Assembly (NCBI RefSeq): GCF_000761485.1
Contig: NZ_JPMX01000003.1
Location: 1-64,000, forward strand
Reading direction: 5' to 3'
Source of the DNA: Modestobacter caceresii
Lineage (GTDB): Bacteria; Actinomycetota; Actinomycetes; Mycobacteriales; Geodermatophilaceae
DNA: 64,000 nt
The notes beneath the pieces are model-generated. The model was not told where the DNA came from. It was given only the letters and a program-made list of their open reading frames with translations, and did no database searches. Both the position numbers and the translations under genes were made by a program. Of the stretch, positions 30,445 through 47,074 are shown piece by piece (within the stretch, counting starts at the first letter, position 1; each line of letters begins with the position of its first letter).

Positions 30445-30552
30445 CCGGGCATCGTCGCCAGTGGACCTGTGCGTGAGGTCAGCGCCACGCCGCTGGACGC
30501 CCGGTGACCGACCCGACATCTCCGCGACATCCGCGCCAGGGATGCTGGGGCC

Positions 30553-31209: not shown

Positions 31210-31255
31210 GCCCGGTCGACCGACGTCCACCGACGGAGGGCAGGAGGGGCCGAGG

Positions 31256-31927: not shown

Positions 31928-33219
31928 GCCGTCTCCGGCCAGGGCAGCTCGGCGCGCAGCCGGAACTCCCCGTCGGGCGTCCAGCCGTGCTCCAGGTGCC
32001 CACCGCCCAGGCTGACCCGCTCCAGCAGACCCACCAGTCCGGTGCCGGCGCTGGGCAGCGGCGCGGAGTGCTCCCCGCCGGCCGGCGGCGGGTTGCGCAC
32101 CTCCACGGTGAGGCCCCTGCCCGGGCCCCCGGCCACGACGACGGCGGCCACCGTGCCCGGCGCGTGCTTGCGCACGTTGGTCAGGCCCTCCTGGACGACG
32201 CGGTAGGCGTTGCGCCCGGTGGCTGCCGGGGCCGAGCCGAGCTCGGGCACCCGGTACTCCGCCCGCACCCGGACCCCGGCCCGCCGGCACTCCTCGATGA
32301 GCGCGGGCAGGTCGGCCAGCCTCGGCTGCGGGCGGGTGCTCGGGTCGCCGTCCCCACCGTCGCGGAGCACCCCGATCACCTCCCGGAGGTCCTCCAGCGC
32401 CTGGCGGGCACTGGCCCGGACCACGCCGGCGGCCCGGGCCACCTCGGCCGCGGGGGCGTCGGGGCGGAACTCCAGCGCCCCGGCGTGCATGCTCAGCAGG
32501 GACAGCCGGTGGGCCAGCACGTCGTGCATCTCCCGGGCGATCCGGGTGCGCTCGAGGTGCCGGGCCTGTTCGACCCGCAGCTGCTGCTCGTCCTCGGCCC
32601 GCACCGCCCGTTCCCGCAACGACACCACCAGCTGACGGCGGGCACGGACGAACAGGCCCGAGGCCACGACGGCGGCGGTGAGCACGACGCCGAAGCCGAG
32701 CAACAGCGGCCACGGCATGTCCTCGGTCGGGCGCAGCAGGCTGTAGGTGACGACCGATGCGAGGTTGAGCCCCGTCACGGCCAGCACCGGCGGGAGCCGG
32801 CGGTGCACCGCGACGGTGAACAGCGCGATCAGCACCGCCGCGCCGCTCATGTCGGAGAAGCTGCCGATCAGCGCCAGCACCACGGCCACGCCGACCGGCC
32901 ACCGGCGCCGCCACCACAACAGCAGGCAACCGATGGACCCGGCCAGGACGTCGGCAGCGATCAGCGCATCCGGGTGCGGGCCCGGTTCGCTCAGGGTGAT
33001 GCCCACGATGACCATGCCGAAGGCGATCGCGAAGAGGAACGCCGCGACGTCGACCGCCCAGTCGCGGACCGAGCGGCGGACCCGGCGGCGTCGGCCCGTG
33101 CCGGACGTGGTGTCCGGGCTCCGCTCGGGCACAGCACCCGGGTCACCCAGGAGCTGGGCCGGCACCAGCGAGGGGTGTTCCACGCCGGGGGCGGACCCCG
33201 GTCCCGTCGCCACGCTCAC
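31924..33219 (-). CDS. Sensor histidine kinase (HisKA_3)
   Basis: A 431-residue kinase with about five N-terminal hydrophobic helices (residues about 55-190), a coiled-coil (RERAVRAEDEQQLRVEQARH), the HisKA_3 phospho-acceptor histidine in RIAREMHDVLAHRLSLLSMH, and an ATPase domain with RVVQEGLTNVRKHAPGT and GTGLVGLLERVSLGGG. It is paired with the response regulator downstream. Its gene diverges from an ABC transporter operon, the usual arrangement for envelope-stress or antibiotic-sensing systems. Confidence 0.94.
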   Translation of the reverse strand: MSVATGPGSAPGVEHPSLVPAQLLGDPGAVPERSPDTTSGTGRRRRVRRSVRDWAVDVAAFLFAIAFGMVIVGITLSEPGPHPDALIAADVLAGSIGCLLLWWRRRWPVGVAVVLALIGSFSDMSGAAVLIALFTVAVHRRLPPVLAVTGLNLASVVTYSLLRPTEDMPWPLLLGFGVVLTAAVVASGLFVRARRQLVVSLRERAVRAEDEQQLRVEQARHLERTRIAREMHDVLAHRLSLLSMHAGALEFRPDAPAAEVARAAGVVRASARQALEDLREVIGVLRDGGDGDPSTRPQPRLADLPALIEECRRAGVRVRAEYRVPELGSAPAATGRNAYRVVQEGLTNVRKHAPGTVAAVVVAGGPGRGLTVEVRNPPPAGGEHSAPLPSAGTGLVGLLERVSLGGGHLEHGWTPDGEFRLRAELPWPETA

Positions 33220-33357
33220 AGGAGGAGGCTACGGACGCCCGTCGGTCGCCGGAACAGACCAAGGTCTACGTCTGCGGCGTCGGTAGCCGGGGGGAGCGGG
33301 TGATCACCTACTTCTGGCCGATGCGCGGAGCCGGTCGGACAGAGCAGGGTCTGCACC

Positions 33358-34263
33358 ATGATCACGATCGAACACCTGACGAAGGCGTACGGCGGGCAGC
33401 TCGCCGTCGCCGACGTCTCCTTCTCCTGTCCGCCGGGCACCGTCACCGGCTTCCTCGGCCCCAACGGTGCCGGCAAGTCCACGACGATGCGCGCACTGGT
33501 CGGGTTGGCCGAGCCGACCAGCGGCACCGCGACCGTCGGCGGGCGCCGGTACCGCGACCTGCCCAACGCCGGTCGCTCGGTGGGCGTGCTCCTCGACGCC
33601 GGTGCCCAGCACGGTGGGCGCACCGGGCGGGAGGTGCTCACCCTGGCCTCCCGGGTCCTCGGCGTCGACCGTCGCCGGGTGGACGAGGCGCTGGAGCGGG
33701 TGGGCCTGGCCGGGCGGCCGGCCGGCAAGCGCGTCGGCCAGTACTCCCTCGGGATGCGGCAGCGGCTGGGCCTGGCGACCGCGCTGCTCGGCGACCCGCA
33801 GGTGCTGGTGCTCGACGAGCCGGCGAACGGGCTGGACCCGGAGGGCATCTTCTGGATGCGCGGGCTGCTGCGCGACTTCGCCGACCGCGGCGGCACCGTG
33901 CTCCTCTCCTCCCACCTGCTGCACGAGGTCGAGGCGGTCGCCGACCAGCTGGTGGTCATCTCCGGCGGGCGGATCGTCGCGCAGGGCAGCAAGTCCGAGC
34001 TGCTGGCCGGCACCGGCGGCACCTTGGTGCGCGGTCCGGACCGGGCCCTGCTGGCCAAGGCGCTGGAGGTGGCCGGCATCGGCATCTCAGCCGGACCGGA
34101 CGACGCCCTCGTGGCCGACGCCGAGGCCCTCGCCGTCGGTCAGGCGGTGGCCGCGGCGGGCGTCGTGCTCACCGAGCTGCGGGCCGCCGGGGGAGCGGGG
34201 CTGGAGGACCTCTTCCGCTCCCTCACCGGTTCCTCGCACGAGGTCCAGGAGGTGCAGGCATGA
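33358..34263 (+). CDS. ABC exporter ATP-binding protein
   Basis: A 301-residue ATPase with Walker A GPNGAGKSTTM near residue 38, a Q-loop-type LLDAGAQHGGRTGRE, signature YSLGMRQRLGLATALLG, Walker B VLVLDEPANGLDPEG and H-loop SSHLLHEVE. The C-terminal region is that of CcmA-like efflux ATPases. It is coupled by ATGA overlap to the permease gene and is likely controlled by the divergent two-component system. Confidence 0.94.
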   Translation: MITIEHLTKAYGGQLAVADVSFSCPPGTVTGFLGPNGAGKSTTMRALVGLAEPTSGTATVGGRRYRDLPNAGRSVGVLLDAGAQHGGRTGREVLTLASRVLGVDRRRVDEALERVGLAGRPAGKRVGQYSLGMRQRLGLATALLGDPQVLVLDEPANGLDPEGIFWMRGLLRDFADRGGTVLLSSHLLHEVEAVADQLVVISGGRIVAQGSKSELLAGTGGTLVRGPDRALLAKALEVAGIGISAGPDDALVADAEALAVGQAVAAAGVVLTELRAAGGAGLEDLFRSLTGSSHEVQEVQA

Positions 34264-35045
34264 GCACCGCGACCCTCACACCGGAACAGCCGCGCACGCT
34301 GGCGGACCACCCGGCGCCGTCCCTGCTCCAGCTGGTGCGGGTGGAGCTGCGCAAGTCCTACGACACCCGCGCCGGACGGTGGCTGCTGATCGTCATCGGC
34401 CTGGCTGTGCTCGCGGTGGTGGCGCTCTCGCTGTTCGTCGAGGACGTGCCCAAGACGTTCACCGACCACTTCGGCTTCACCCAGCTGCCGATCAGCATCC
34501 TGCTGCCGGTGCTCGGCATCCTGCTGGTGACGAGCGAGTGGTCGCAGCGCACCGCCATGACGACGTTCACGCTGGTGCCGCGCCGCTCCCGGGTGCTCGT
34601 CGCCAAGGTGCTCGCGGCCACGCTGCTGGCGGTGCTCGGGGTCGTCGTCGCGGCGCTGGCCTCCGTGCTCGCGACCGTGCTGACCCCGGTCTTCTCCGAC
34701 GCGGAGAGGGACTGGAGCCTCAGCGCCGCGCTGGTGGGCCAAGTGCTCGTCGTCCAGGTGGTGACCGTGCTGGCCGGTGTCGCGTTCGGCATGCTGCTGC
34801 TCAGCTCGCCCCTGGCGATCGTCCTGTACTTCGTGCTGCCTACGGTCTTCACCATCCTGGTCAGCCTGGTGGCGGCGCTGGACTGGGTGCGCGACTGGCT
34901 GGACCTGTCGACCACCTCGATGCCGCTGTTCGAGGACGGAGTGGATGCGCAGGGGTGGCTGCAGTTCGGCACCTCGGTGGGGCTGTGGGTGGCGTTGCCG
35001 ATGCTGCTCGGCTGGTTGCGCATCCTGCGGACCGAGGTCGCCTGA
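34260..35045 (+). CDS. ABC transporter permease
   Basis: From ATG 34260 (overlapping the ATPase stop), 261 residues with about six membrane helices of the ABC-2 type: VELRKSYDTRAGRWLLIVIG, then LPISILLPVLGILLVTSEWSQRTAMTTFTLVPRRSRVLVAK, a hallmark of this exporter group. The substrate is unknown. A hairpin at 35051-35084 ends the operon. Confidence 0.9.
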   Translation: MSTATLTPEQPRTLADHPAPSLLQLVRVELRKSYDTRAGRWLLIVIGLAVLAVVALSLFVEDVPKTFTDHFGFTQLPISILLPVLGILLVTSEWSQRTAMTTFTLVPRRSRVLVAKVLAATLLAVLGVVVAALASVLATVLTPVFSDAERDWSLSAALVGQVLVVQVVTVLAGVAFGMLLLSSPLAIVLYFVLPTVFTILVSLVAALDWVRDWLDLSTTSMPLFEDGVDAQGWLQFGTSVGLWVALPMLLGWLRILRTEVA

Positions 35046-35050
35046 CCCGA

Positions 35051-35084
35051 CGGTCGGCGGCGGGCGTCGTCCCGCCGCCGACCG
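35051..35084. terminator. Bidirectional terminator hairpin
   Basis: 14-bp stem cggtcggcggcggg / cccgccgccgaccg with a 6-nt loop in the 41-bp gap between the convergent permease and GH15 genes. Confidence 0.75.
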
Positions 35085-35086
35085 GC

Positions 35087-36877
35087 TCAGGCGTGCTCGC
35101 CGGGGACTCGCAGCGCCCCGCTGAGGTGCCGGGCGGTGTTGACCAGGCCGACGTGGCTGAAGGCCTGGGGGGTGTTGCCCAGGTGCCGGCCGGTCCGCGG
35201 GTCGTACTCCTCGCTCATCAGCCCGAGGTCGTTGCCCAGGCCCAGGAGCCGCTCGAACAGCTCCCGGGCCTCGGTCGTGCGGCCGATGCCGTTGAGCGCG
35301 TCGGCGAGCCAGAAGCTGCACAGCAGGAACGGCGCCTCCTCACCCGGCAGTCCGTCGACCCGGCCGTCGGCGTGGGTGTGGTAGCGGAGCAGGAAGCCGT
35401 CGGAGGTGAGCTCGCGCTGCACCGCCTCCACCGTGCCCACGACCCGATCGTCGTCCCAGGGCAGGAAGCCGACCTGGGGGATGAGCAGCAGGGCCGCGTC
35501 CAGGCCCTCGGAACCGTAGAACTGGGTGAACGTCCGGCGCTCGGCGTCATAGCCCCGGGCGCAGACGTCGTCGTGGATCCGCTGACGCAGGTCCCGCCAG
35601 CGCTCGACCGGCCCGTCCAGCCCGTGCCGCTCCACGGCCTCGATCGCGCCGTTGACGCCGGCCCAGGCCAGCACCTTGGAGTGCACGAAGTGGCGCGGCT
35701 CGCCCCGGACCTCCCACAGGCTGCTGTCCGGGGTGTCCCACACGCCCTCCAGGAAGGCCACCAGCTCCTTCTGGACCGCCCAGGCGTCCTCCAGTGGGGA
35801 CAGCCCGGACTCGCGGGCCAGGTGGAGCCCGTCGAGCAGCTCACCCCAGACGTCGAGCTGGAACTGACCGGCGGCGGCGTTGCCCACCCGCACCGGGGCC
35901 GAGCCCTCGTACCCGGGCAGCCACGGCAGCTCGTACTCCGGGATCCGCCGGGACCCGTCCAGCGCGTACATGATCCGCAGGTCGGCGGGGTCACCGGCGA
36001 CGGCGCGGAGCAGCCACTCCCGCCAGGCCCGCGCCTCCTCGAGGTAGCCCGTGCCGAGCAGCGCCTGCAGGGTGAACGCCGCGTCGCGCAGCCAGCAGTA
36101 GCGGTAGTCCCAGTTGCGGCTGCCGCCGAGCTCCTCGGGCAGGGAGGTGGTCGCGGCGGCGACGATCCCGCCGGTGGGCCGGTAGGTCAGCGCCTTGAGG
36201 GTGATCAGCGAGCGACGGACCGCCGGCCCCCACTCCCCGTCGTAGCTGCACTGGCCGATCCACTCGGCCCAGAACGCCTCGGTGCTCGTCAGTGCCTCCT
36301 CGGCGTCGACCGCCTCGGGCCGCGGCAGGTGCGAGGCGTGGTGGGTGAGCACGAACGGGACCCGCTCACCGGCAGCGACCTCGAACTCGGCTGCGGTGGT
36401 GTGGTCCTGCCCGTGCAGCTGGACCGGCGTGGCGAGGGAGACGGCGTCCGGGCCGGCGACGGCGACCAGGTCGCCGTCCACCGAACGCACCCAGGGCACC
36501 AGGTGGCCGTAGTCGAACCGGAGCACCAGGTCAAGCCGCATCGGCACCCGGCCGGACACGCCCTCGACGATGCGGACGACATCGGGGCTCTCGCCCCGCG
36601 GCGGCATGAAGTCGATGACCCGTACCGTCCCGGTCGGGGTCTCCCACTCGGTCTCCAGCACCAGTGAGTCACCTCGGTACCGCCGGCTGGTGCAGGTGCC
36701 CGCTCCAGCCGGCGCGAGCTGCCACCGGCCGTTGCGCTCGTCGCCCAGCAGCGCGGCGAAGCAGGCAGCGGAGTCGAAGGACGGCAGGCACAGCCAGTCG
36801 ATCGAGCCGTCCTTGCCGACCAGCGCAGCGGTCTGCAGGTCCCCGATCAGTCCGTAGTCCTCGATCCTGCTCGGCAC
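35087..36877 (-). CDS. Glycoside hydrolase family 15 protein (trehalase/glucoamylase-like)
   Basis: A 596-residue GH15 enzyme: N-terminal domain IEDYGLIGDLQTAALVGKDGSIDWLCLPSF, then the catalytic barrel with SRNWDYRYCWLRDAAFTLQAL and a C-terminal FSHVGLVNTARHL. Actinobacterial members of this type are trehalases (mycobacterial TreH) or glucoamylases. Presence of a GH65 phosphorylase 6 kb away, and the same 15-bp upstream motif, supports a glucan/trehalose role. Confidence 0.92.
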   Translation of the reverse strand: MPSRIEDYGLIGDLQTAALVGKDGSIDWLCLPSFDSAACFAALLGDERNGRWQLAPAGAGTCTSRRYRGDSLVLETEWETPTGTVRVIDFMPPRGESPDVVRIVEGVSGRVPMRLDLVLRFDYGHLVPWVRSVDGDLVAVAGPDAVSLATPVQLHGQDHTTAAEFEVAAGERVPFVLTHHASHLPRPEAVDAEEALTSTEAFWAEWIGQCSYDGEWGPAVRRSLITLKALTYRPTGGIVAAATTSLPEELGGSRNWDYRYCWLRDAAFTLQALLGTGYLEEARAWREWLLRAVAGDPADLRIMYALDGSRRIPEYELPWLPGYEGSAPVRVGNAAAGQFQLDVWGELLDGLHLARESGLSPLEDAWAVQKELVAFLEGVWDTPDSSLWEVRGEPRHFVHSKVLAWAGVNGAIEAVERHGLDGPVERWRDLRQRIHDDVCARGYDAERRTFTQFYGSEGLDAALLLIPQVGFLPWDDDRVVGTVEAVQRELTSDGFLLRYHTHADGRVDGLPGEEAPFLLCSFWLADALNGIGRTTEARELFERLLGLGNDLGLMSEEYDPRTGRHLGNTPQAFSHVGLVNTARHLSGALRVPGEHA

Positions 36878-36994
36878 GGGTGGTTCCTCTCGAGTGGGTC
36901 GGCCCGCGGGTCAGCCGCGGGTGGCACGCGGGAGGCGCCCTGCGCCCCCTACCGACCAGCCTCTCGCCGCAAACCCCTCCACCCGTTCGTTCGA

Positions 36995-37009
36995 CCGTTA
37001 TCCCCAACA
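36995..37009 (+). promoter_or_regulatory. 15-bp motif CCGTTATCCCCAACA, copy B
   Basis: In the divergent 282-bp gap between GH15 and isochorismatase, about 120 nt upstream of GH15. Same 15 bases as copies A and C. Confidence 0.45.
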
Positions 37010-37159
37010 CAAACGCGGCACTGGACAAGGGAAGGACCAGCTCCAGCAGGGGAGGGGGTGGCCCTGCCGCCGGTCGGTGTCGAAGCGGGGCCTCCTGTCG
37101 GTGGTCCGGTCTAGCGTTCCCGCTGTCGCACGAGCCGCTGACCAGCAGGGGAGACCGTC

Positions 37160-37714
37160 ATGAGCACGCTGCCCGACCGACCGCACACCGCACTCATCGT
37201 CATCGACGTCCAGCAGGGCGTGGTGGCCGAGGCGCCCCGCCGGGACGAGGTCGTCGGCAACATCGACGCTCTGGTCGAGAAGGCGCGCGGCGACGGGGTG
37301 CCGGTCGTCTGGGTGCAGCACTCCGACGAGGAGCTGGTGCGGGGGAGTGACGAGTGGCAGTACGTCCCCGAGCTGGTGCGGGCGCAGTCCGAGCCGTTGG
37401 TGCACAAGTCCTACGGCGACTCGTTCGAGGGCACCGACCTCGAGGACGTGCTGGCCGACCTCCGCGTGGGCCGCCTGGTCGTGGCGGGGGCAGAGTCCGA
37501 TGCCTGCATCCGGTCGACGATCCACGGGGCCTTCACCCGGGGCTACGACGTCACCCTCGTCGGCGATGCCCACACCGCCGGCGACAAGAGCGCCTGGGGC
37601 GCGCCGCCCGCGGAGCAGGTCATCGCGCACACGAACCTCTACTGGCAGTTCCAGGCGGCGCCCGGTCGCACGGCCGGGGTGGTGGAGACGCGGGACGTGA
37701 CCTTCTGCGGTTGA
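37160..37714 (+). CDS. Isochorismatase family cysteine hydrolase
   Basis: A 184-residue alpha/beta hydrolase: catalytic Asp in LIVIDVQQGVV, Lys in VHKSYGDSF, Cys in VVAGAESDACIRSTIHGAFTRGYDVTLVGDAHT. The triad is complete. Family members hydrolyse amide or vinyl-ether bonds (nicotinamide, isochorismate); the substrate is unknown. The start has GGGGAG 7 nt upstream; TAGCGT at 37112 may be its -10. Confidence 0.92.
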   Translation: MSTLPDRPHTALIVIDVQQGVVAEAPRRDEVVGNIDALVEKARGDGVPVVWVQHSDEELVRGSDEWQYVPELVRAQSEPLVHKSYGDSFEGTDLEDVLADLRVGRLVVAGAESDACIRSTIHGAFTRGYDVTLVGDAHTAGDKSAWGAPPAEQVIAHTNLYWQFQAAPGRTAGVVETRDVTFCG

Positions 37715-37745
37715 CCGGGTGGTGAACGACCGCTGCCACGACCCG

Positions 37746-37775
37746 TTGACACATGCAGGTGAACACCTGCATGAT
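37746..37775 (+). promoter_or_regulatory. ArsR-gene promoter with overlapping operator
   Basis: TTGACA (37746-37751), an 18-nt spacer, CATGAT (37770-37775). The palindrome catgcaggtg-aa-cacctgcatg (37752-37773) fills the spacer and overlaps the -10. The -10 ends 7 nt before ATG 37783, so the mRNA is probably leaderless and autorepressed. Confidence 0.7.
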
Positions 37776-37782
37776 CCTGTTC

Positions 37783-38628
37783 ATGGACGCCGAGGCGAGC
37801 GGGATGGACGCCGTCTTCAAGGCGCTCGCCGACCCGACTCGGCGGCTGTTGCTCGACCGGTTGCGGGAACGGAACGGCCAGACCCTCGGTGAGCTCTGTG
37901 CGCACCTGGGCATGGCCCGGCAGTCGGCGACCCAGCACCTCGACGTCCTGCAGCGAGCCAACCTCGTCACCGTCGTCCGGCGGGGTCGGGAACGGCTGCA
38001 CCACCTCAACCCGGTGCCGATCCACCAGGTCCAGGAGCGTTGGATCTCGGCGTTCGACCAGCCCCGGCTTTCCGCCATCAGCGCGATCACGCAGCAGGCA
38101 GAGGAGCAGGCCATGGCCACCAGCACGAGCACGTCCGGAGTTCCCGACTACGTCTACGTCACCTACATCCGCGCGAGCGCCGAGCAGGTGTGGCGCGCGT
38201 TGACCGACGCCGACCTGACCGCCCGGTACTGGGGGCACGCCAACGTGTCCGACTGGCAGACCGGGTCGACGTGGGAGCACCGACGCACCGACGGGTCGGA
38301 GGAGGTGGACGTCGCCGGGCGGGTGCTCGAGTCGGTGCCCCCGACCCGCCTGGTCATCACGTTCCAGGAGTCGGCGGCGGACGGCGACGAGGACCCGGTG
38401 GGGGAGCCGTCGGTCGTGACCTTCGCGGTCGAACCGCACGAGGGCATCGTCCGGCTCACCGTCACCCACGAGCGCCTCGCGGACCAGGCCAGCCACGACG
38501 GTGTCTCGCACGGGTGGCCCGCGGTGCTGGCGAACCTCAAGTCGCTCTTGGAGACGGGCGAGGTGCTGCCGGCCGAGCCGTGGCAGATGACGCCGGTGCG
38601 CGGCGCTCGTGCACACGCGGACGCCTGA
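37783..38628 (+). CDS. ArsR-type HTH fused to AHSA1/SRPBCC domain protein
   Basis: ATG 37783 is chosen from the promoter; earlier in-frame ATGs lie inside the operator. Residues 1-100 are an ArsR winged HTH (AVFKALADPTRRLLLDRLRE; LGELCAHLGMARQSATQHLDVLQRANLVTVVRRGRERLH). After a linker (AISAITQQAEEQAM) residues about 120-270 form an AHSA1/SRPBCC domain (VYVTYIRASAEQVWRALTDADLTARYWG; GWPAVLANLKSLLETGE). These are usually two neighbouring genes. An internal ATG at 38113 has GAGGAG 6 nt upstream, so a separate SRPBCC protein may also be made. Confidence 0.9.
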   Translation: MDAEASGMDAVFKALADPTRRLLLDRLRERNGQTLGELCAHLGMARQSATQHLDVLQRANLVTVVRRGRERLHHLNPVPIHQVQERWISAFDQPRLSAISAITQQAEEQAMATSTSTSGVPDYVYVTYIRASAEQVWRALTDADLTARYWGHANVSDWQTGSTWEHRRTDGSEEVDVAGRVLESVPPTRLVITFQESAADGDEDPVGEPSVVTFAVEPHEGIVRLTVTHERLADQASHDGVSHGWPAVLANLKSLLETGEVLPAEPWQMTPVRGARAHADA

Positions 38629-38636
38629 GCGACGTC

Positions 38637-39242
38637 GTGACCGAGCTGAGCCAGAGCCCACTCGGAGCGGACGTCGCGCTGGCGGCCCGAGCCGGTCGCT
38701 ACGCCCTGGACGAGGTCGGGGCGCTGACCATCGGCGACCTGGACCGGCCGACGCCCTGCGCCGACTGGGACGTCCGGTCCGTCGTGGCGCACCTGGCGGA
38801 CGTCGCCGATGCCCTCGCCGGCCTGCTCGCCACCGGTCGGCTGACCATGCCCGGGTCGCCGGCGCGGCCCGCCGACGACCCGGTGGCCGGCGCTCAGCGG
38901 CGGGTCCAGCAGTTGCTCGACCAGTTGCAGGCAGCCGGTGAGCAGGGGAGCGACGGACACCCGGCACCGTGGGCGGCCGAGGCGGCCCACGGTGCCGCGA
39001 TCGAGTTCACCGTCCACGGCTGGGACGTCGCCGCTGCACGAGGCCGGGCACACCAGATGCCGGCAGACCTCGCTGGGGACGTCCTGGCCCTGGCTGGTCG
39101 ACTGCTCGACGACTCGGCCCGCGGGGCGTCGTTCGCCGCCCGGGTGACCTCCGGACCGGACGAGTCACCTGTCGAGCGCCTGGTCGCCTTCATGGGCCGA
39201 GACACGGCGCGGTGGACCCGGTCGTTGACCGCCGGCGCGTGA
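38637..39242 (+). CDS. TIGR03086 family metal-binding protein (mycothiol-dependent DinB-like fold)
   Basis: From GTG 38637, 201 residues: DLDRPTPCADWDVRSVVAHLADVADALAGLL is the DinB/maleylpyruvate-isomerase N-terminal helix bundle with the metal-ligand His, and AAIEFTVHGWDVAAARGRAHQMP holds another metal His. Members are mycothiol-dependent or of unknown activity. It follows the ArsR-AHSA1 gene by 8 bp, so is likely in the same operon and repressed with it. Confidence 0.86.
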   Translation: MTELSQSPLGADVALAARAGRYALDEVGALTIGDLDRPTPCADWDVRSVVAHLADVADALAGLLATGRLTMPGSPARPADDPVAGAQRRVQQLLDQLQAAGEQGSDGHPAPWAAEAAHGAAIEFTVHGWDVAAARGRAHQMPADLAGDVLALAGRLLDDSARGASFAARVTSGPDESPVERLVAFMGRDTARWTRSLTAGA

Positions 39243-39272
39243 GGAGACCGATCGGGGTCTGCCGTCTCCACT

Positions 39273-39300
39273 ACTTGACATAATGTCGATTATCGGCGCA
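39273..39300 (-). other. dif: dif site (XerC/XerD chromosome dimer resolution)
   Basis: On the minus strand, the 28 bases match the published actinobacterial dif consensus at 27 of 28 positions: the left arm CGCCGATAAT, centre CGACAT and right arm TATGTCAAGT. It is outside any gene. XerC/XerD recombine here to resolve chromosome dimers, so the window spans the replication terminus. Confidence 0.9.
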
Positions 39301-39854
39301 CTGGAAGAGGCTGGTCGGAGGGGCTTCCTGAGCTTGTTGGCTGGTCCGAGACGCAACATGCGGCGGCGTGTGATCGCCTCGGCCCCGACCAGGTGATCGG
39401 TGTCGAGTCCCCAGGGTCCACGTCCGGTCGTCGGACCCGGTGAGCATCCCGTGGCGTGCTGCACGGGTCCGGCGCCGAGGGCCGGAATGCCATGTTGATC
39501 ATCTCGAGCCCGCTGACAGATCGGACGATCGTGATGGGTCTCCGGATCTGGACATGGCGGACGTTGTTCGTCGTCATCGGCGGCCGCGACCCCCTGCAGG
39601 CCCAGGTCCCCTGGTCCTGCTTATCAGGCTCCAATACGTCACTCTGACGGAATGACCGCGCTGCAGGGTCTCGGTCGACCATGATCATGCGCTCCGCATG
39701 GTCGCGCGGTGGGCCGCGGCACCCGAGTGCCGGCTCGGTCGCCCTCGCCCTCTCCGGCGCTGACCCAAGGAGGTTGTCCCGGCGGTTCGACGCGCACCCG
39801 TCGCGGCGCCGATCGAGGACCTGGGTGCCACTCCCCCTGGACCGAGTGTGCCCA

Positions 39855-39870
39855 GGTGACAAACGTCACA
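39855..39870. promoter_or_regulatory. CRP/FNR-like palindrome
   Basis: GGTGA-CAAACG-TCACA matches the mycobacterial CRP half-sites (TGTGA-N6-TCACA) at 9 of 10 bases. It lies about 45 bp from the stop of the zinc-finger gene, not in front of a known start, so function is doubtful. Confidence 0.25.
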
Positions 39871-39912
39871 GTGACGCATCGGCAGCCAACTCCTCGGTCG
39901 ACCGCCGGTGGC

Positions 39913-40422
39913 TCAGCCGGCGGCCTTGCCGTTCAGCCAGAGCCGGTCCAGCCGACCGGTCGACCGCACCAGCTCGGCCAGGGACCGCTCGAGCTCGGCC
40001 TTGGTGGGCTTCTCGGTGAGCAGCGTCTGGACGTCCTCGATGGCGCAGCGCAGTTGGTACAGCCGGTCCTGGAGGCCGTCCAGCTCTGCCCGGGTCACCA
40101 GGACGACGTCCGCGGACAGTCCGGCCTTCGCCGTCGCCGACCGCTGCTCGTACGCCCGCTGCCGGCACGCCTGGCCGCAGTAGAGCCGGGGCCGGCCGAC
40201 CGACTCCTGCGCCGGCAGGACGTTGCGGCACCAGCCGCACCGTCGCTCTTCGCCCTCGGGACGCCGCGTCCGAGGGACCAGACGGGCCTCGACGCCCTGC
40301 TCTACCGTCACGGCTGGGACGGTAGACGCCCGGCCCGCCCGTCCGCCGCGGACACGCCCGAGGCCGCTCCCGGCGGGTGGGCGCGTCGCCACCTGGACCA
40401 CCTCCGAGACGCTGCGGACCAC
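39913..40422 (-). CDS. Hypothetical protein with Cys4 zinc-ribbon
   Basis: A 169-residue protein, family unnamed to me. Residues about 60-95 carry a zinc-ribbon (RCGWCRNVLPAQ... YCGQACRQRAYEQRSA), typical of small actinobacterial DNA-binding-like proteins. The C-terminal half is helical, with a possible coiled coil (ELDGLQDRLYQLRCAIEDVQTLL). The start is uncertain: GTG 40422 gives the full frame, but an internal GTG near 40311 would remove a low-conservation N-terminus. It lies 18 bp from the divergent GDPD gene and is the closest gene to dif on that side. Confidence 0.6.
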   Translation of the reverse strand: MVRSVSEVVQVATRPPAGSGLGRVRGGRAGRASTVPAVTVEQGVEARLVPRTRRPEGEERRCGWCRNVLPAQESVGRPRLYCGQACRQRAYEQRSATAKAGLSADVVLVTRAELDGLQDRLYQLRCAIEDVQTLLTEKPTKAELERSLAELVRSTGRLDRLWLNGKAAG

Positions 40423-40427
40423 CGCAC

Positions 40428-40433
40428 TAGCGT
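40428..40433 (+). promoter_or_regulatory. -10 box TAGCGT, probable leaderless GDPD transcript
   Basis: TAGCGT ends 6 nt before GTG 40440; no Shine-Dalgarno is seen. Confidence 0.45.
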
Positions 40434-40439
40434 GGGGGC

Positions 40440-41216
40440 GTGCCGGGCTCGCGTTACGCCTTCCTCGACGGCCCGACCCCGGTGGCGATGGCCCACCGCG
40501 GTGGGGCGATCGAGCACCTGGAGAACACCCAGCCGGCCTTCGAGGCGTGCGTGGAGCTGGGCTACCGGTACATCGAGACCGACGTCCGGGTCACCTACGA
40601 CGGCGAGCTCGTGGTCTTCCACGACCCCACGCTGGACCGGGTCACCGACCGCACCGGCCGGGTCGACAGCCTGCCCTGGCGGGAGATGCGCACGGCGCTG
40701 ATCGGTGGCCGTGAGCCGATCATGCGGCTGGAGGACCTGATGGGTGCCTGGCCCGACGTCCGGTTCAACCTCGACATCAAGGCCGCCGGCGTGCTGGCGC
40801 CGCTGGTGCACAGCGTCCGGCGGCTGAAGGTCGAGGACCGGATCTGCCTCGGTTCCTTCTCCGACGCCCGCATCGCCGCGGCGCGACGCCTCTTCGGCCC
40901 GGACGTCTGCACCTCCCTGGGGCCCAAGGGCGTCGCCGCGCTCCGGCTGTCCTCCTACTCCCCGCGCGCCGCGGGGCTGGTCCGGATCCAGGCCGGGTGC
41001 GCGCAGGTGCCGCTGGCCCTGGGGGGCCGCCCGCTGGTGGACGAGCGGTTCATCGCCGCGGCACACGCCCGGAGCCTGCAGGTGCACGTCTGGACGGTCG
41101 ACAGCGAGGCGGAGGCCACCGAGATGCTCGACCTGGGCGTCGACGGCGTGATGACCGACCGGCCGGCCATGCTCCGCGACCTGCTGGTGTCCCGGGGGCA
41201 GTGGACCGGCGCGTGA
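40440..41216 (+). CDS. Glycerophosphodiester phosphodiesterase
   Basis: A 258-residue GDPD TIM barrel with the catalytic pair in MAHRGGAIEHLENTQPAFEACVELGYRYIETDV (HRG and E-x-D) and VVFHDPTLDRVTDRTG, then VHVWTVDSEAEATEMLDLGVDGVMTDRPAML at the C-terminus. It releases glycerol-3-phosphate from lipid headgroups. No signal peptide is seen, so it is probably cytosolic. Confidence 0.94.
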   Translation: MPGSRYAFLDGPTPVAMAHRGGAIEHLENTQPAFEACVELGYRYIETDVRVTYDGELVVFHDPTLDRVTDRTGRVDSLPWREMRTALIGGREPIMRLEDLMGAWPDVRFNLDIKAAGVLAPLVHSVRRLKVEDRICLGSFSDARIAAARRLFGPDVCTSLGPKGVAALRLSSYSPRAAGLVRIQAGCAQVPLALGGRPLVDERFIAAAHARSLQVHVWTVDSEAEATEMLDLGVDGVMTDRPAMLRDLLVSRGQWTGA

Positions 41217-41319
41217 GCGTCGTCCGCCAGGCGGCTGCGCACCGACCGGTCGGGCACGGCACGCACCGGCAGTCGGGCCGGTGCTGGACCGCCGTCCCCG
41301 CGCCTGGCACCCTGCGCCG

Positions 41320-42690
41320 GTGAGCGCCGCCCCGCAGGTCGACCCCGCACCGCCGCCGGACCAGGCGCTGCGCCGCGAGCGCGCCGGTTGGTACTCCTAC
41401 GACTGGGCGATGTCGGTCTTCAACACCTCGGTGACGACCGTCTTCCTCGCGCCCTACCTCACCTCGATCGCCGAGGCGGCCGCCGACGCCGAGGGCCGGA
41501 TCCACCCGCTGGGCATCAGCGTCCCGCCGGGCAGCTGGTTCGGGTACGTGCTGTCGCTGTCGGTCGTGCTGCAGGTGCTCGTGCTGCCGATCACCGGGGC
41601 CATCGCCGACCGCAGCGGCGCCAAGCGCCAGCTGCTGGCCACGTTCGCCGCCGTCGGCTCGCTGTGCACCATGTCGCTGTTCTTCGTCGCCGGTGAGCGC
41701 TACCTCCTGGGCGCTGCGCTGTTCATCGCGGCCAACCTCTCCTTCGGCGCGGCGACCGTCGTCTACTACTCCTGGCTGCCGGACCTCGCCGGGCCGGACG
41801 AGCGGGACGTCGTCTCCAGTCGCGGCTGGGCCTGCGGCTACCTGGGCGGGGCGCTGCTGCTGGCCGGCAACCTGGCGCTGTTCTCCCAGTACGAGGCGCT
41901 GGGCATGACCGAGGGCGAGGCGGTGCGGATCTGCCTGGCCTCGGCCGGGATCTGGTGGGCCGGGTTCACCGTGGTCAGCGTCTCGCTGCTGCGCAACCGG
42001 CAGCCGCGCGAGTCCGCCGTGGCGGTGCCACCCGGGCAGGGGGCGCTCTCCGGTGGCTTCCGGCAGCTCGCCGCGACGCTGCGCGACCTGCGGCGGTACC
42101 GGCTCACCCTGTGGTTCCTCGGCGCCTACCTGCTGTTCAACGACGGCGTGCAGACGATCATCGGGGTGTCGGCGCAGTACGGCGCCGAGGAGCTCGACCT
42201 CGACCAGTCGACGCTGATCTCGGCGATCCTGCTGGTGCAGGTGGTGGCCTTCTTCGGGGCGATCGGGATGGGCCGGATCGCCATGGTGGTCGGTGCCAAG
42301 CGCACGGTGCTGGGCAGCCTGGTGCTGTGGGTCGGCGTCCTGGTGGCGGCGTACTTCGTGCAGTCGGGCGCCGTCGTCCAGTTCTACCTGCTCGCCGTCT
42401 GCATCGGCTTCGTGCTCGGTGGCACCCAGGCGTTGTCCCGCTCGCTGTTCAGCCAGCTCATCCCGCCGGGCAAGGAGGCCGAGTACTTCGGCTTCTACGA
42501 GATCAGCGACCGTGGGACCAGTTGGCTCGGCCCGTTCCTGTTCGCCCTGACCTACCAGCTCACCGAGTCCTACCGGTACGCGATCTTCAGCCTCGTCTTC
42601 TTCTTCGTCGCCGGCGGCTGGCTGCTGGCCCGGCTGGACATGCGCCGCGCGATCGTCGAAGCCGGCAACACCCCTCCGGAGCGTCTGTGA
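41320..42690 (+). CDS. MFS transporter, UMF1/Atg22 family
   Basis: From GTG 41320, 456 residues with 11-12 membrane helices. It opens WYSYDWAMSVFNTSVTTVFLAPYLTSIA, the Atg22/UMF1 hallmark, and has GTQALSRSLFSQLIPPGKEAEYFGFYEISDRGTSWLGPF near the end. Likely an amino-acid or small-metabolite effluxer; substrate unknown. Its stop overlaps the thymidine kinase start (GTGA). Confidence 0.92.
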   Translation: MSAAPQVDPAPPPDQALRRERAGWYSYDWAMSVFNTSVTTVFLAPYLTSIAEAAADAEGRIHPLGISVPPGSWFGYVLSLSVVLQVLVLPITGAIADRSGAKRQLLATFAAVGSLCTMSLFFVAGERYLLGAALFIAANLSFGAATVVYYSWLPDLAGPDERDVVSSRGWACGYLGGALLLAGNLALFSQYEALGMTEGEAVRICLASAGIWWAGFTVVSVSLLRNRQPRESAVAVPPGQGALSGGFRQLAATLRDLRRYRLTLWFLGAYLLFNDGVQTIIGVSAQYGAEELDLDQSTLISAILLVQVVAFFGAIGMGRIAMVVGAKRTVLGSLVLWVGVLVAAYFVQSGAVVQFYLLAVCIGFVLGGTQALSRSLFSQLIPPGKEAEYFGFYEISDRGTSWLGPFLFALTYQLTESYRYAIFSLVFFFVAGGWLLARLDMRRAIVEAGNTPPERL

Positions 42691-43454
42691 CCCCCACTCC
42701 CCCCGCCGGTCAGCTCGCCGCCCTCGACGCCTCGCTGGACGTCGTCCCGGCCGCCGGCGACCGTCGTCGGCACCCGGCGCCCGCCCATCTGGTCTTCTTC
42801 CACGGGCCGATGGACTGCGGGAAGTCCACCCTCGCCCTCCAGGTCGACCACAACCAGAGTCGGCAGGGCCGGCACGGGCTGCTGCTGACCCAGGGCGACC
42901 GCTCCGGAACCCCGCAGATCAGCTCCCGGGTCGGGCTGCAGCGGGCGGCGATCGAGCTGCACGCCGACACCGACGTCCGGCTGCTGGTGCGCGACCGCTG
43001 GGCCGCCGGGCAGCGGGTCGACTACCTGATCGTCGATGAGGCGCAGTTCCTCACCGGCGCGCAGGCCGAGCAGCTGGCCGAGCTGGTCGACGAGTCCCAC
43101 GTCGACGTCTACGCGTTCGGGCTGACCACCGACTTCCGCACCCGGCTGTTCCCGGGCACCCAGCGGCTGTTCGAGCTGGCCGACGACGTGCAGCGGGTGC
43201 AGGTCGAGGTGCTCTGCTGGTGCGGCCTGCCCGGCCTGCTCAACGCCCGGGTGGTCGGTGGCGCCGTGGTGCGCGAGGGGGCCACCGTGGTGGTCGCCGA
43301 CACCGCTCCGGCGTCGCAGCCGCCGGCGGACGTCCCCGAGGTCGCGTCCGGCGGGGACGCCGCCGTCCGCTACCAGGTGTTGTGCCGGCGGCACTACTAC
43401 CGCGGCCAGCTGGGTCCGACGCCGACCGTGGCGGGGCAGCTGGCCCTGCGCTGA
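42687..43454 (+). CDS. tdk: Thymidine kinase (TK1/type II)
   Basis: From GTG 42687, 255 residues. P-loop GPMDCGKSTLALQ at about residue 41, the catalytic Glu in VDYLIVDEAQFL, and the zinc-lasso cysteines LCWCGLPGLLNARVV and VLCRRHYY. An N-terminal extension of about 33 residues is unusual. It phosphorylates thymidine in nucleotide salvage. It overlaps the MFS gene, so the two are co-transcribed. Confidence 0.93.
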   Translation: MTPTPPAGQLAALDASLDVVPAAGDRRRHPAPAHLVFFHGPMDCGKSTLALQVDHNQSRQGRHGLLLTQGDRSGTPQISSRVGLQRAAIELHADTDVRLLVRDRWAAGQRVDYLIVDEAQFLTGAQAEQLAELVDESHVDVYAFGLTTDFRTRLFPGTQRLFELADDVQRVQVEVLCWCGLPGLLNARVVGGAVVREGATVVVADTAPASQPPADVPEVASGGDAAVRYQVLCRRHYYRGQLGPTPTVAGQLALR

Positions 43455-43531
43455 GCCGGTCGGTTGCTCACCCGTCGGGGTGGTTGAGCGCTGATACATC
43501 ACCCCGTGCGATGATGTACGACTGACGACAC

Positions 43532-43558
43532 GGAATCTCTTTCCTTCATCTGTCGTTG
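43532..43558 (+). promoter_or_regulatory. SigR/SigH-type promoter of rbpA
   Basis: GGAAT (43532-43536), 18-nt spacer, then GTT (43555-43557; CGTT). This fits the oxidative-stress sigma factor pattern GGAAT-N18-GTT. S. coelicolor rbpA is a known SigR target. The leader to ATG 43650 would be about 85 nt. Confidence 0.6.
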
Positions 43559-43649
43559 ACCCCTGCGACACCCCGCACCGGATGCGTGAGCATGCGGCTG
43601 CCCGGGCAGTCCAGATCTGACCGACATCAGCACGAGAGGACGGTGTGCC

Positions 43650-43994
43650 ATGGGCGAGCGTTCGCTACGCGGAAGCCGACTGGGCAGCGTGAGCTATGAG
43701 ACCGAGCGCAACACCGCGCCCATCGAGCGGCAGTACGCCGAGTACCGGTGTGCCCAGGGGCACCTCGTCACGGTGCCCTTCGCCGATGACGCCGAGCTCC
43801 CCGACACCTGGGAGTGCAAGTACGACGGTTCGGCCGCCAAGCTGGTCGGCGGCGCGGAGCCGGCTCCCAAGAAGGTCAAGCCGCCGCGTACGCACTGGGA
43901 CATGCTCCTGGAGCGTCGTTCGGTCGACGACCTGGAGGAGGTCCTCGCCGAGCGGCTCGAGGTGCTCCGTGGTCGCCGGACCCGGGCGTCCTGA
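43650..43994 (+). CDS. rbpA: RNA polymerase-binding protein RbpA
   Basis: A 114-residue RbpA: N-terminal tail MGERSLRGSRLGSVSYETER, core domain with YRCAQGHLVTVPFADDAELPDTWECKYDG, basic linker PAPKKVKPPRTHWDM, and sigma-interacting domain LLERRSVDDLEEVLAERLEVLRGRR. It binds RNA polymerase and group 1/2 sigma factors and stabilises open complexes. It ends at a strong hairpin terminator. Confidence 0.97.
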   Translation: MGERSLRGSRLGSVSYETERNTAPIERQYAEYRCAQGHLVTVPFADDAELPDTWECKYDGSAAKLVGGAEPAPKKVKPPRTHWDMLLERRSVDDLEEVLAERLEVLRGRRTRAS

Positions 43995-44029
43995 GCGTCT
44001 TCGACTGAGCTCGCGCTGAGCTGAGCACG

Positions 44030-44065
44030 GCACGGCCCCGGTGGGAGTCCCCACCGGGGCCGTGC
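44030..44065. terminator. Bidirectional terminator hairpin
   Basis: Perfect 16-bp stem gcacggccccggtggg / cccaccggggccgtgc with a 4-nt loop between the convergent rbpA and fxsA genes. Confidence 0.85.
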
Positions 44066-44084
44066 TGTGTCCGGGGGCGGACGG

Positions 44085-44612
44085 TCAGGGGTCCGTGCGC
44101 TCCGGGGCGACCTCGCCCTCGATCACGCGGCTGGCCGGCCCCGCGCGGAACGGCTGGTCGGGGCCGGCGACCGGCTCGGTGCGGGTCGAGCGCACGTACA
44201 CCGGGCCGCGCAGCCGGTCCGGCAGTCGCCGCAGCAGGCCGCGGGTGATCAGCGCGCGGGGCAGGGCACGGGTGGCCGGCAGCAGGCACAGCAGGCCCAG
44301 CAGGTCACCCAGGAAGCCGGGCAGCACCATCAGCAGCCCGCCCAGGGCGACCAGGCCGGCGTCGCCGAGGGCCCGACCGGGGGCCCGGTGCTCCTCGGCG
44401 CGCAGCCGCAGCTCCCCGAGGGCCTTGGTGCCCTGCCGGGCCAGCAGCGCCCAGCCCAGTGCGCTGGTGGCCAGGGTGGCGAGGATCGTCCAGCCCAGCC
44501 CGATCCAGGAGGCGACCAGGACGTAGACGACGACCTCGGCCAGGGCGCCCAGCCCGATCGCCGTCCGCAGCCCCGACGACCTGCGTCGTGGGGCGGTGTG
44601 GCTGGTGGCCAT
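44085..44612 (-). CDS. fxsA: FxsA family membrane protein
   Basis: A 175-residue FxsA homologue with about four membrane helices (GLGALAEVVVYVLVASWIGLGWTIL; DAGLVALGGLLMVLPGFLGDLLGLLCLLP, the family signature) and a hydrophilic C-terminal tail. In E. coli FxsA affects phage exclusion by F plasmid; its actinobacterial role is unknown. It matches the Rv2053c position next to ppm1/rbpA. Confidence 0.92.
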   Translation of the reverse strand: MATSHTAPRRRSSGLRTAIGLGALAEVVVYVLVASWIGLGWTILATLATSALGWALLARQGTKALGELRLRAEEHRAPGRALGDAGLVALGGLLMVLPGFLGDLLGLLCLLPATRALPRALITRGLLRRLPDRLRGPVYVRSTRTEPVAGPDQPFRAGPASRVIEGEVAPERTDP

Positions 44613-44648
44613 GCGTTCTCCCTCCGCCCGCGGGGCGGTGGGTCCTCC

Positions 44649-45452
44649 CTACCGGAGGACCCTGGGCCGCCGCCCGTCCCGGGCTCGTGCTGGCACGGGC
44701 CGGGTCACCCGGCCCGGCAGCCGATCGGCCAGCCGGTCCAGGATGCCCCACCAGGTCACCCGTACCAGTGCTTCTCCAACGATCGAACCGCTCATCTTGC
44801 TCCGCCCGACCGTGCGTTCGCTGAAGGCGATCGGCACCTCGACCACCCGGGCACCGGCCCGGACCGCCCGCCAGGCCCAGTCGACCTGGAAGCAGTAGCC
44901 CTGACTGGCGACCGTGTCGAAGGGCAACCGGCGGACCAGCTCCATCCGGGCCGCCCGGAACCCGCCGGTCGCGTCGGCCAGCGGCAGCCGCAGCGCCCAC
45001 CGGGTGTAGAGGTTGCCCAGCCGGGACAGCGCCAGCCGGTGCGGCGGCCAGTCGAGCACCTCTCCCCCGGGCACGTACCGGGATCCCAGCACCAGGTCGG
45101 CGTCGGCGAGGGCGGCCAGCAGCGCCGGGAGCCGCTCGGGCGGGTGCGAGCCGTCGGCGTCCATCTCGACCACCACGCCGTAGCCGTGCTGCTCGGCCCA
45201 GCGGAAGCCGGCGACGTAGGCCGGGCCCAGTCCCGCCTTGGCGGTGCGGTGCAGCACGTGCACCCGCTCGTCGGCCGCGGCCCGGGCGTCGGCCAGCTCG
45301 CCGGTGCCGTCGGGCGAGGCGTCGTCGACGACGAGGGCGTGCGCGGTCGGCACCGCCGCGTGCAGCCGGTCCAGGACCGCCGCCAGGTTCCCGACCTCCT
45401 CGTAGGTCGGGACCACCACGAGCACCGGCCCGGGGGCCGCCGGGCCGGTCAC
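44649..45452 (-). CDS. Polyprenol monophosphomannose synthase (Ppm1 catalytic part)
   Basis: A 267-residue GT2 enzyme from GTG 45452. VLVVVPTYEEVGNLAAVLDR and VVDDASPDGTGELAD bind the nucleotide sugar, then MDADGSHPPERLP with the DxD, and GGFRAARMELVRRLPFDTVASQGYCFQVDWAWR. It transfers mannose from GDP-mannose to polyprenyl phosphate for lipoarabinomannan/glycoprotein mannosylation. It is a separate gene overlapping lnt, unlike fused mycobacterial Ppm1. Confidence 0.92.
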   Translation of the reverse strand: MTGPAAPGPVLVVVPTYEEVGNLAAVLDRLHAAVPTAHALVVDDASPDGTGELADARAAADERVHVLHRTAKAGLGPAYVAGFRWAEQHGYGVVVEMDADGSHPPERLPALLAALADADLVLGSRYVPGGEVLDWPPHRLALSRLGNLYTRWALRLPLADATGGFRAARMELVRRLPFDTVASQGYCFQVDWAWRAVRAGARVVEVPIAFSERTVGRSKMSGSIVGEALVRVTWWGILDRLADRLPGRVTRPVPARARDGRRPRVLR

Positions 45453-47074
45453 CGGCCGCGCTCGGCCCGGCGCCGGGCCAGGGCCGGGAACGCCACCGCC
45501 AGGACGGCGCCCACGCCCAGCGCCGTCAGCACCCACTCCGGGGCCGCGCCCAGCCGTTCGGCGACGGTCGAGGAGTCCCGCTGGGCGATCTCCTCGACGA
45601 AGGTGTCGGCGGTGAACAGCTCGGAGCGCTGCACGAGGGAGCCGTCCGGGGCGACGACGGCGCTGATCCCGCTGGTCGCCGCGACCACGACCGTGCGGCC
45701 GTACTCGACGGCCCGCAGCCGGCTCATCGCCAGCTGCTGCGCGCTCTCGTCGGTGTAGCCGAAGGTCGCGTTGTTGGTCTGCACGACCAGCATCCCGGCG
45801 CCGGCGTCGACGACGTCGGAGACCAGCCCGTCGTAGGCGACCTCGAAGCAGATGACGTCGCCGACCCGCGCCCCGCCGACGTCCAGGATGCCGACCTCGG
45901 TGCCGTGCACGAAGTCGGTGACCCGGTCCACGAGCGGGCTGAAGAACCGGAAGAACGGCCGGGCCGGCACGTACTCCGCCAGCGGCACGGGGTGCCGCTT
46001 GACGTAGGTGTCCCCCGGCCCGGTCACCGGGTCCCAGACGATGGCCGTGTTCGCCACGTACTCCCCCGGCAGCTGCACCACCGCGCCCACCAGGATGGGC
46101 GCGTCGATGGCGACCGCGGCGCGGGTGATGACCCGGGCGGCGTCGGCGTTGGTGTACGGGTCGATGTCGGAGCTGTTCTCCGGCCAGATGACCAGGTCGG
46201 GCTGCGCGGCCTCACCGCGCGCGACGGCTGCGGCCAGCTCGAGCGTCTGGTCCGCGTGGTTGTCCAGCACCGCCCGCCGCTGGGCGTTGAAGTCCAGCCC
46301 GGCCCGCGGCACGTTGCCCTGGATGACCGCCACCGTGCGGTCGGGCCCGCCCGCGGTCAGCGACGACCCCGCCAGCGGCAGCTCGGCCAGCACCGCGACC
46401 AGGGGGACGGCGAGCGCACCGACGAGCGCCAGGGCCGCTCCACGCCGTCCGGCTCGCCGCTCGCCGGGCCGGCGCGTGGCCCGGTGCAGGCCGACCAGGC
46501 CGGCGGCCAGCAGCGTGCCGGTCAGCGCGACCGCGAAGCTCACCAGTGGGACACCGCCGTAGGCCGCCAGCGCCGTGAACGGCCCGTCGGCCTGACTGAA
46601 CCCGAGCCGTCCCCACGGGAACCCGCCCAGCGGCTGCCGGCCGCGTAGCGCCTCGGCGCCCACCCACAGCGCAGCCGCCCACAGCGGCCAGGCCGGCAAC
46701 CGGGAAGTGGCGGCCAGGGCGCCGCCGAGGAGCGCGAAGTACAGCGCCTCGAACACCGCCAGCACCAGCCAGGGGAAGGCGCCGACGTAGATGCCGGTCC
46801 AGGACAGCAGGGGCACCAGGAAGACCAGGCCCAGCACCAGACCCAGCCACGCCCCGCTGCGCGCCCGTTCGCCGCGGACGGCGAGGGTGAGGGCGGCCGG
46901 CCCGAGCACGGCCAGCCCGGACAGGTCGTGCCCGGGGAAGGCGAGGTACATCGCCAGGCCACCGGCTGCTGCCACGCCGGTGCGCCAGGGCCATCGGCGA
47001 CGGGGGGCCGGGGGCTCCGCCGGGGTGTTCGAGGTGGCTGACTCCACCGTGCCGGTCGCCACCACTGCCGGCAC
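45449..47074 (-). CDS. lnt: Apolipoprotein N-acyltransferase
   Basis: From GTG 47074 (gaagg upstream), about 541 residues. Multiple membrane helices precede a nitrilase-like periplasmic domain with the Glu-Lys-Cys triad: WPENSSDIDPYTNADA, YVKRHPVPLAEYVPARPFFRF and GDVICFEVAYDG. It N-acylates the lipobox Cys of lipoproteins, e.g. the products at 2548 and 22599. In Mycobacterium Lnt and Ppm are one polypeptide; here the two genes overlap by GTGA. The start could lie a few codons either way (47062-47074). Confidence 0.93.
   Translation of the reverse strand: MPAVVATGTVESATSNTPAEPPAPRRRWPWRTGVAAAGGLAMYLAFPGHDLSGLAVLGPAALTLAVRGERARSGAWLGLVLGLVFLVPLLSWTGIYVGAFPWLVLAVFEALYFALLGGALAATSRLPAWPLWAAALWVGAEALRGRQPLGGFPWGRLGFSQADGPFTALAAYGGVPLVSFAVALTGTLLAAGLVGLHRATRRPGERRAGRRGAALALVGALAVPLVAVLAELPLAGSSLTAGGPDRTVAVIQGNVPRAGLDFNAQRRAVLDNHADQTLELAAAVARGEAAQPDLVIWPENSSDIDPYTNADAARVITRAAVAIDAPILVGAVVQLPGEYVANTAIVWDPVTGPGDTYVKRHPVPLAEYVPARPFFRFFSPLVDRVTDFVHGTEVGILDVGGARVGDVICFEVAYDGLVSDVVDAGAGMLVVQTNNATFGYTDESAQQLAMSRLRAVEYGRTVVVAATSGISAVVAPDGSLVQRSELFTADTFVEEIAQRDSSTVAERLGAAPEWVLTALGVGAVLAVAFPALARRRAERGR

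Follow-up and report, generated by a model that had tools for sequence, protein, structure and literature searches.

A conserved palindrome and a candidate partner protein beside the predicted dif site of Modestobacter

Introduction

The window analysed here, the whole stretch of 64,000 nucleotides of Modestobacter caceresii DNA, contains a 28-base element in an intergenic gap. A sequence-only reading had taken this element for dif and had placed the window at the replication terminus. The locus raises two questions: is the element the chromosomal dif, and does the DNA in and beside the gap hold anything beyond a dif site?

The 28-base element is very probably the chromosomal dif

The element lies between two convergent genes. 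The gap had been put at 670 bp and measures exactly that (39243-39912). The features of the site are as follows.

38637..39242, plus strand: left neighbour, mycothiol maleylpyruvate isomerase-like (MDMPI_N), convergent to the gap, predicted start
39243..39912, no strand: convergent intergenic gap of 670 bp containing dif and both palindromes described below, flanking stops at 39242 and 39913
39273..39300, minus strand: dif site, 28 bases, single-copy, consensus match
39290-39300: XerC arm of dif, TGCGCCGATAA, arm name after E. coli dif
39284-39289: dif centre, TCGACA
39273-39283: XerD arm of dif, TTATGTCAAGT, arm name after E. coli dif

The arm names are assigned by analogy with E. coli dif. 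On the minus strand, 39273-39300 reads TGCGCCGATAATCGACATTATGTCAAGT and agrees at 27 of 28 positions with the consensus TTCRCCGATAATVNACATTATGTCAAGT. The mismatch is at position 2, where the home dif has G for the consensus T, and is common to many relatives. The same consensus was reportedly given for actinobacterial dif by Hendrickson & Lawrence in 2007. The agreement claimed in the sequence-only reading was borne out in this form, on the minus strand. A pyrimidine-rich tract ~25 bp before the XerC arm (39301-39330) and AG after the XerD arm (39262-39272) are partly conserved in Modestobacter.

Copy number was examined at several levels. In the window, no other consensus match was found at ≤3 mismatches, and 0 of 100 shuffles contained any. 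From base composition alone, ~2e-10 sites per genome are expected at ≤1 mismatch to the consensus. The home dif sequence, for which a single-copy check had been proposed, is found only once in the 4.95-Mb genome (139 contigs, ≤3 mismatches). All 23 genomes of the genus, home included, have exactly one match to it at this threshold; family-wide, 60 of 112 genomes match it. The 21-base dif core (≤2 mismatches) was present in 108 of the 112 family genomes, with one site in 106, two in 2 and none in 4. The 26-base core of the home dif was found in 34 named stretches, mostly from Modestobacter and other Actinobacteria.

In six relatives with complete or nearly complete chromosome contigs, dnaA and dif are separated by 46.4, 46.7, 49.1, 49.5, 50.0 and 50.3% of the contig; four genomes that have the two on separate contigs, or a contig far smaller than the genome, are outside this sample. 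The home assembly comprises 139 contigs and carries dnaA and dif on different ones. The GC-skew inflection, also named earlier as a check, gave a weak signal. The home contig (145 kb) shows no sharp switch (+0.011 over the left 39 kb, -0.0015 on the right). In the relative G091 the change of sign is blurred: the skew is positive between -200 and -20 kb, mixed or close to zero between -20 and +80 kb, and lastingly negative only from ~80 kb past dif (+80 to +200 kb). Skew in 20 genome-wide samples was noisy. GC skew was rejected as a terminus anchor, being too weak.

Seven tyrosine recombinase matches were found in the home genome, one above the XerD cut-off and a strong second Xer-like one below the cut-off. 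The genome also has one FtsK-gamma match, which can be aligned to the solved gamma domains 2j5o and 2ve8/2ve9. XerC and XerD would bind the two arms of 39273-39300, FtsK would translocate to dif along polarised GGGGGAG signposts, and Xer recombination at dif would resolve chromosome dimers at division.

Plasmids and integrated elements are also known to carry dif-like sites, which in general allows the 28-mer to be a mobile-element copy of dif, or else a chance match. Here this is hardly credible: the site is single-copy, it lies opposite dnaA in the six relatives, the polarity of GGGGGAG switches at it, and one flank of dif carries a conserved gene cluster in all 11 family genomes examined (both described below). 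The first three of these points also uphold the placement of the window at the terminus. Judged from its sequence, 39273-39300 is very probably the chromosomal dif of Modestobacter, marking the terminus. Taken alone, this dif site is ordinary.

A polar GGGGGAG motif switches at dif

GGGGGAG derives from the octamers that are most strongly polarised in G091 up to 200 kb from dif. It was then tested in the home contig, where it defines two arms.

1..38406, plus strand: left arm, GGGGGAG points rightwards to dif, 22 of 23 copies on plus, last copy at 38400
39831..64000, minus strand: right arm, GGGGGAG points leftwards to dif, 46 of 48 copies on minus (counted as far as 145 kb, where the contig ends), first copy at 39831

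In the home contig, 68 of 71 copies point toward dif (22 vs 1 on the left, 46 vs 2 on the right), and the best switch point falls in a 1.4-kb interval (38401-39801) with dif inside. The motif ranks first of 4159 7-mers for polarity. Single changes mostly abolish the bias, while AGGGGAG retains it (11:0). Counted toward and away from dif with a crude gene caller, copies number 34:1 in leading-strand genes, 22:0 in lagging-strand genes and 12:2 outside genes. The bias is therefore not explained by gene direction. Hand-summed counts within 20 kb of dif came to 270:7 for ten genomes of the family and 152:6 for ten more distant genomes, with the motif sparse in the three genomes of family f2 (3:1, 6:0 and 7:1). 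In plain counts, the motif is denser near the terminus in G091, with 9-14 copies per 20 kb in the four stretches ≤40 kb from dif and 3-12 in the other stretches examined.

The E. coli KOPS, GGGNAGGG in PMC13342612, shows hardly any polarity in the home contig, with 24 copies toward dif and 14 away from it. GGGGGAG belongs to an already published type. PMC2830990 gives the Corynebacterium architecture-imparting sequences G(A/T/C)GGGGGA and (T/C)GGGGGAG, and PMC3022926 also has the motif as such a sequence of Corynebacterium. These sequences share with ours the GGGGGAG core, the strand bias toward dif and the switch at dif; the motif is found here in Geodermatophilaceae and other actinobacterial families instead. 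It presumably acts through FtsK.

A palindrome is conserved on the XerC side of dif

The sequence-only reading was silent on two conserved palindromes in the gap and on a terminus-linked gene beside it. The palindromes are the following.

39637..39649, no strand: dif-companion palindrome 1, CGTCA-CTC-TGACG, conserved, XerC side
39864..39876, no strand: dif-companion palindrome 2, CGTCACAGTGACG, the sole CGTCACWGTGACG in the home genome

The pattern CGTCA-N3-TGACG occurs twice in the home contig (39637 and 39864) and ten times in the home genome, where the reversed-pattern control occurs twice. Its flanks are AT-rich. Within Geodermatophilaceae, at least one strict copy was found within 1.3 kb of dif on the XerC side in 21 of 21 loci. 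A wider set of 125 loci was reduced to 98 by dropping 6 without a recognised core and 21 that had a flank below 1 kb or were duplicates. In this set, 57 of 98 loci have a strict palindrome within 1 kb of dif on the XerC side, compared with 2 of 98 for the XerD side. By family, the XerC-side palindrome was found in 38 of 41 loci of the home family (f1), 10 of 11 of f2, 3 of 4 of f57, 2 of 4 named Nocardia, 3 of 9 of f65, 1 of 5 of f58 and 0 of 24 of the remainder, which includes other orders. The three other home-family loci have no strict palindrome on the XerC side. At one home-family locus (L173, genome G006) the XerC side has no palindrome and the XerD side has two, possibly owing to a local inversion.

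Six control palindromes were found in 0-1 of 98 loci on the XerC side and 0-2 on the XerD side. When all 5-bp arms with a 3-base spacer were ranked, CGTCA came first with its 57 loci, and the runner-up reached 8 of 98. CGTCACWGTGACG was present in 22 of 25 whole genomes, most of them chosen for having the palindrome, vs 3 of 25 for the reversed control. Of its 38 copies, 23 are no more than 1 kb from dif by hand count; all but one of the remaining 15 belong to f2 genomes, the exception being in G079 (f1). As a conserved feature of the sequence the companion palindrome is real, far beyond chance. No report of it was found in the literature searched, which took in a minority of subscription papers. 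A 12-bp variant without the central base, CGTCACGTGACG, was seen near dif in three loci where the 13-bp palindrome is absent: L213 (G349), L221 (G397) and L228 (G409).

Palindromes in a convergent gap could be hairpins of transcription terminators, or of other RNAs, serving the two convergent genes, and 39864-39876 ends 36 bp beyond the minus-strand gene's stop. Perfect arms extend to 13-15 bp in 9 of 95 sites, the outer arms show more complementarity than shuffles (405 vs a mean of 312) and than slid pairings, and in f2 a copy stands closely behind parB. However, no terminator-like site was found at 38700-40500, and there is no T-run after the palindrome because A stands at +8 in 71 of 95 sites. 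It is the core letters that recur, not pairing alone, given that no arm other than CGTCA exceeds 8 loci. The arm is limited to 5 bp in 59 of 95 sites and to 4 bp in 11 of 95, and the excess of pairing is nearly gone in 44 representatives that are <70% identical (0.36 vs 0.34 when slid by one). In addition, upstream or divergent regions hold a small number of the off-dif copies. Hairpins of this kind are an unlikely explanation, and a less likely one than binding of the palindrome by a protein.

A terminus-linked gene adjoins the gap

A candidate for such a protein is encoded at the right edge of the gap.

39913..40422, minus strand: dif-linked protein gene (working name), 169 aa, predicted start, candidate palindrome reader
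40440..45536, no strand: genes for GDPD, ATG22-like MFS, thymidine kinase, RbpA, FxsA and family 2 glycosyltransferase, a conserved terminus cluster adjoining the dif-linked gene

The dif-linked protein has two Cys pairs (CGWC...YCGQAC), a basic stretch (CRQRAYEQR) and a predicted long helix. The Cys pairs and the basic stretch are invariant in 13 close relatives, home protein included. The protein matched no Pfam (E up to 0.001) or NCBIfam family, with two non-significant Pfam hits at a lax limit. Only weak matches were obtained against PHROGs (best E 0.0093), and FosW (E 0.65) was the sole hit by sequence against the PDB. The AlphaFold model is all-helical, at low confidence (mean pLDDT 63.6). 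A viral kinship was considered and set aside; viral relatives came from one locus, matching at 51% over 41 residues.

In the home family, the gene lies 0.6-1.7 kb from dif in 26 of 26 genomes. A search of 150 genomes across the order gave a match in 105 (E≤0.001), of which the weakest are short and probably unrelated. Among 24 genomes with dif and the gene on one contig of ≥3 Mb, which excludes G310 (1.77 Mb), the distance to dif was within 11% of half a chromosome in 22 and within 5% in 20; outside the home family, it was within 11% in 19 of 21. The outliers, G372 and G344, have the gene >1 Mb from dif. In f2 the distance is 4.8-271 kb (14 genomes with both on one contig). The dif-linked gene itself is terminus-linked across the order.

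In each of the 11 family genomes examined, the cluster 39913-45536, dif-linked gene included, keeps to the XerC side of dif; in two of them the last cluster gene had no match in the stretch searched. Cluster members lie ≤18 kb from dif in 5 of 10 more distant genomes. The opposite (XerD) side is variable. A 190-aa ORF inside the gap (39290-39862, minus strand) was considered as a gene and set aside; it is probably not one, because it has neither a Pfam match nor relatives in 21 dif regions. At the far left of the window, a c-di-AMP riboswitch (ydaO/yuaA leader) lies at 469-627 on the minus strand, above the Rfam gathering score.

The palindrome and the protein occur together

Among 26 chosen genomes, all 13 that have the palindrome beside dif also have the protein (E<1e-14), against a single one (G391) of the 13 that lack the palindrome there. 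Eleven of the palindrome-bearing genomes have the strict form; G409 and G136 were counted by a short-spacer variant. Outside the home family, with looser and 12-bp variants admitted post hoc when the data were already known, the palindrome stood beside dif in 26 of 32 genomes with the protein vs 1 of 15 without it (Fisher 1.4e-6, which is overstated since the genomes are related; classes assembled by hand, five loci without a recognised dif core excluded). By our own count, the strict pattern alone gave 19 of 32 vs 0 of 15. Six of the 32 protein-bearing genomes have no palindrome beside dif.

Within genus g142, G361 has neither protein nor palindrome, G370 has both, and G321 has the protein without the palindrome. 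Beyond the order, G136 and G297 carry a 39%-identical protein beside dif, with CGTCA/TGACG repeats of shorter spacer nearby; in G297 the XerD arm of the dif match contains a mismatch, and the repeat stands on that side of dif. The link between palindrome and protein is supported by these two lines of evidence, co-occurrence and location. In f2 the palindrome stands at dif (10 of 11) and the gene is 4.8-271 kb away, so the palindrome does not simply serve to control the dif-linked gene.

Palindrome copies away from dif

In f2, an off-dif palindrome was found directly behind a parB-like gene in G140, G393, G254 and G402, all of them ascertained through the pattern itself. In an unbiased check of f2, a parB-side copy in the looser form GTCACAGTGACG was present in 3 of 3 genomes (G411, G417 and G274); the stretch from G217 held no parB and stands outside this count.

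Stretches with the palindrome behind a parB-like gene (f2): L236, L240, L241, L245, L262, L263, L266

In f58, the palindrome lies ~230 bp behind the parB match in G370 and is lacking there in G361. The parB-side palindrome was found in 0 of 8 home-family genomes and was absent from the one f3 genome examined. A 199-kb contig of G140, probably a plasmid, has palindromes at 4082 of L235 and at 4812 and 5652 of L234, one of them beside a parA-like gene. Other off-dif copies in f2 stand beside genes resembling thyX and an ArsR regulator; the labels parB, chromosomal parA, thyX and ArsR were read from translations by eye. According to a crude gene caller, some further off-dif copies fall within coding sequence; these may be chance.

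These neighbours would suit palindromes that are operators of another regulator, with the 39913-40422 protein near dif merely via conserved gene order. The conservation of the cluster from 39913 onward beside dif in all 11 family genomes favors this reading as well. However, the occurrence of the protein follows that of the palindrome throughout the order and also between G361 and G370 of g142 (with G321, protein only, as the exception), and beyond the order G136 and G297 again combine the protein beside dif with the shorter-spacer repeats. We consider operators of another regulator rather unlikely.

The location at the terminus would also fit polar barriers, Tus/Ter- or RTP-like, at which replication forks are trapped close to dif. 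The sites are biased in orientation: in 37 of them TGACGT is present only in the dif-facing half, and in 11 only in the other half. Against such barriers, the palindromes are nearly always on one side of dif, often number one or two, and in f2 have copies beside parB; moreover, the palindrome core is symmetric. Fork barriers are a very unlikely explanation.

Discussion

The dif call anchors the contig and is routine. The palindrome recurs in several families on one side of dif, and a specific protein is a candidate partner for it. On the simplest reading, a dimeric protein would bind the palindrome at dif, with terminus anchoring, help to Xer/FtsK or regulation as possible effects. As the likeliest role of the pair, palindrome and protein may form a protein-DNA complex, sequence-specific in its binding, by which the dif/terminus region is marked or organised, a reading that we regard as a serious possibility just short of probable. 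Likewise tentative, with close to an even prospect, is the proposal of an undescribed terminus-marking system in the Geodermatophilaceae/Nocardia-containing order: the Cys-pair/helical protein would bind CGTCACNGTGACG on the XerC side of dif, in f2 also behind parB, and would link or organise both chromosome poles for segregation or Xer resolution. We know of no terminus-organising protein for this actinobacterial clade. If binding is true, the pair offers a testable handle on terminus handling in these actinobacteria and, in f2, a hint how origin and terminus might share a factor.

The dif site differs from the actinobacterial dif/XerCD system by one mismatch to the consensus. The home genome resembles that system in carrying an XerD match above the cut-off and an FtsK-gamma match. 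Further likeness to the system described by Kono et al. 2011 (PMC3025954) lies in the 28-bp site, the arm layout, the single copy and the terminus position.

The proposed pair shares with Tus/Ter and RTP/Ter short sites near the terminus with a dedicated protein, here a candidate. The sites differ in being one-sided and adjoining dif, in their symmetric core and in the f2 copy near parB. In outline the pair also resembles MatP/matS of enterobacteria, in which a small dedicated DNA-binding protein (here a candidate) likewise goes with a 13-bp palindrome that is concentrated at the terminus. matS is GTGAC-N3-GTCAC, with about 20 sites over 800 kb, and MatP is a ribbon-helix-helix protein. In contrast, the arms of CGTCA-N3-TGACG are inverse to those of matS, the sites number 1-2 as a rule (up to 3) within ~1 kb of dif, and the candidate is a Cys-pair/helical protein without a Pfam match, not ribbon-helix-helix. 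The matS arm GTGAC was outside the eight commonest 5-N3-5 arms on either side of dif in the 98 loci, and the dif-linked protein, the only one searched for this, had no match to the MatP family in Pfam. Because the site arrangement differs and the family match is lacking, the candidate pair, judged at the sequence level, is MatP/matS-like in broad terms and not a member of that system.
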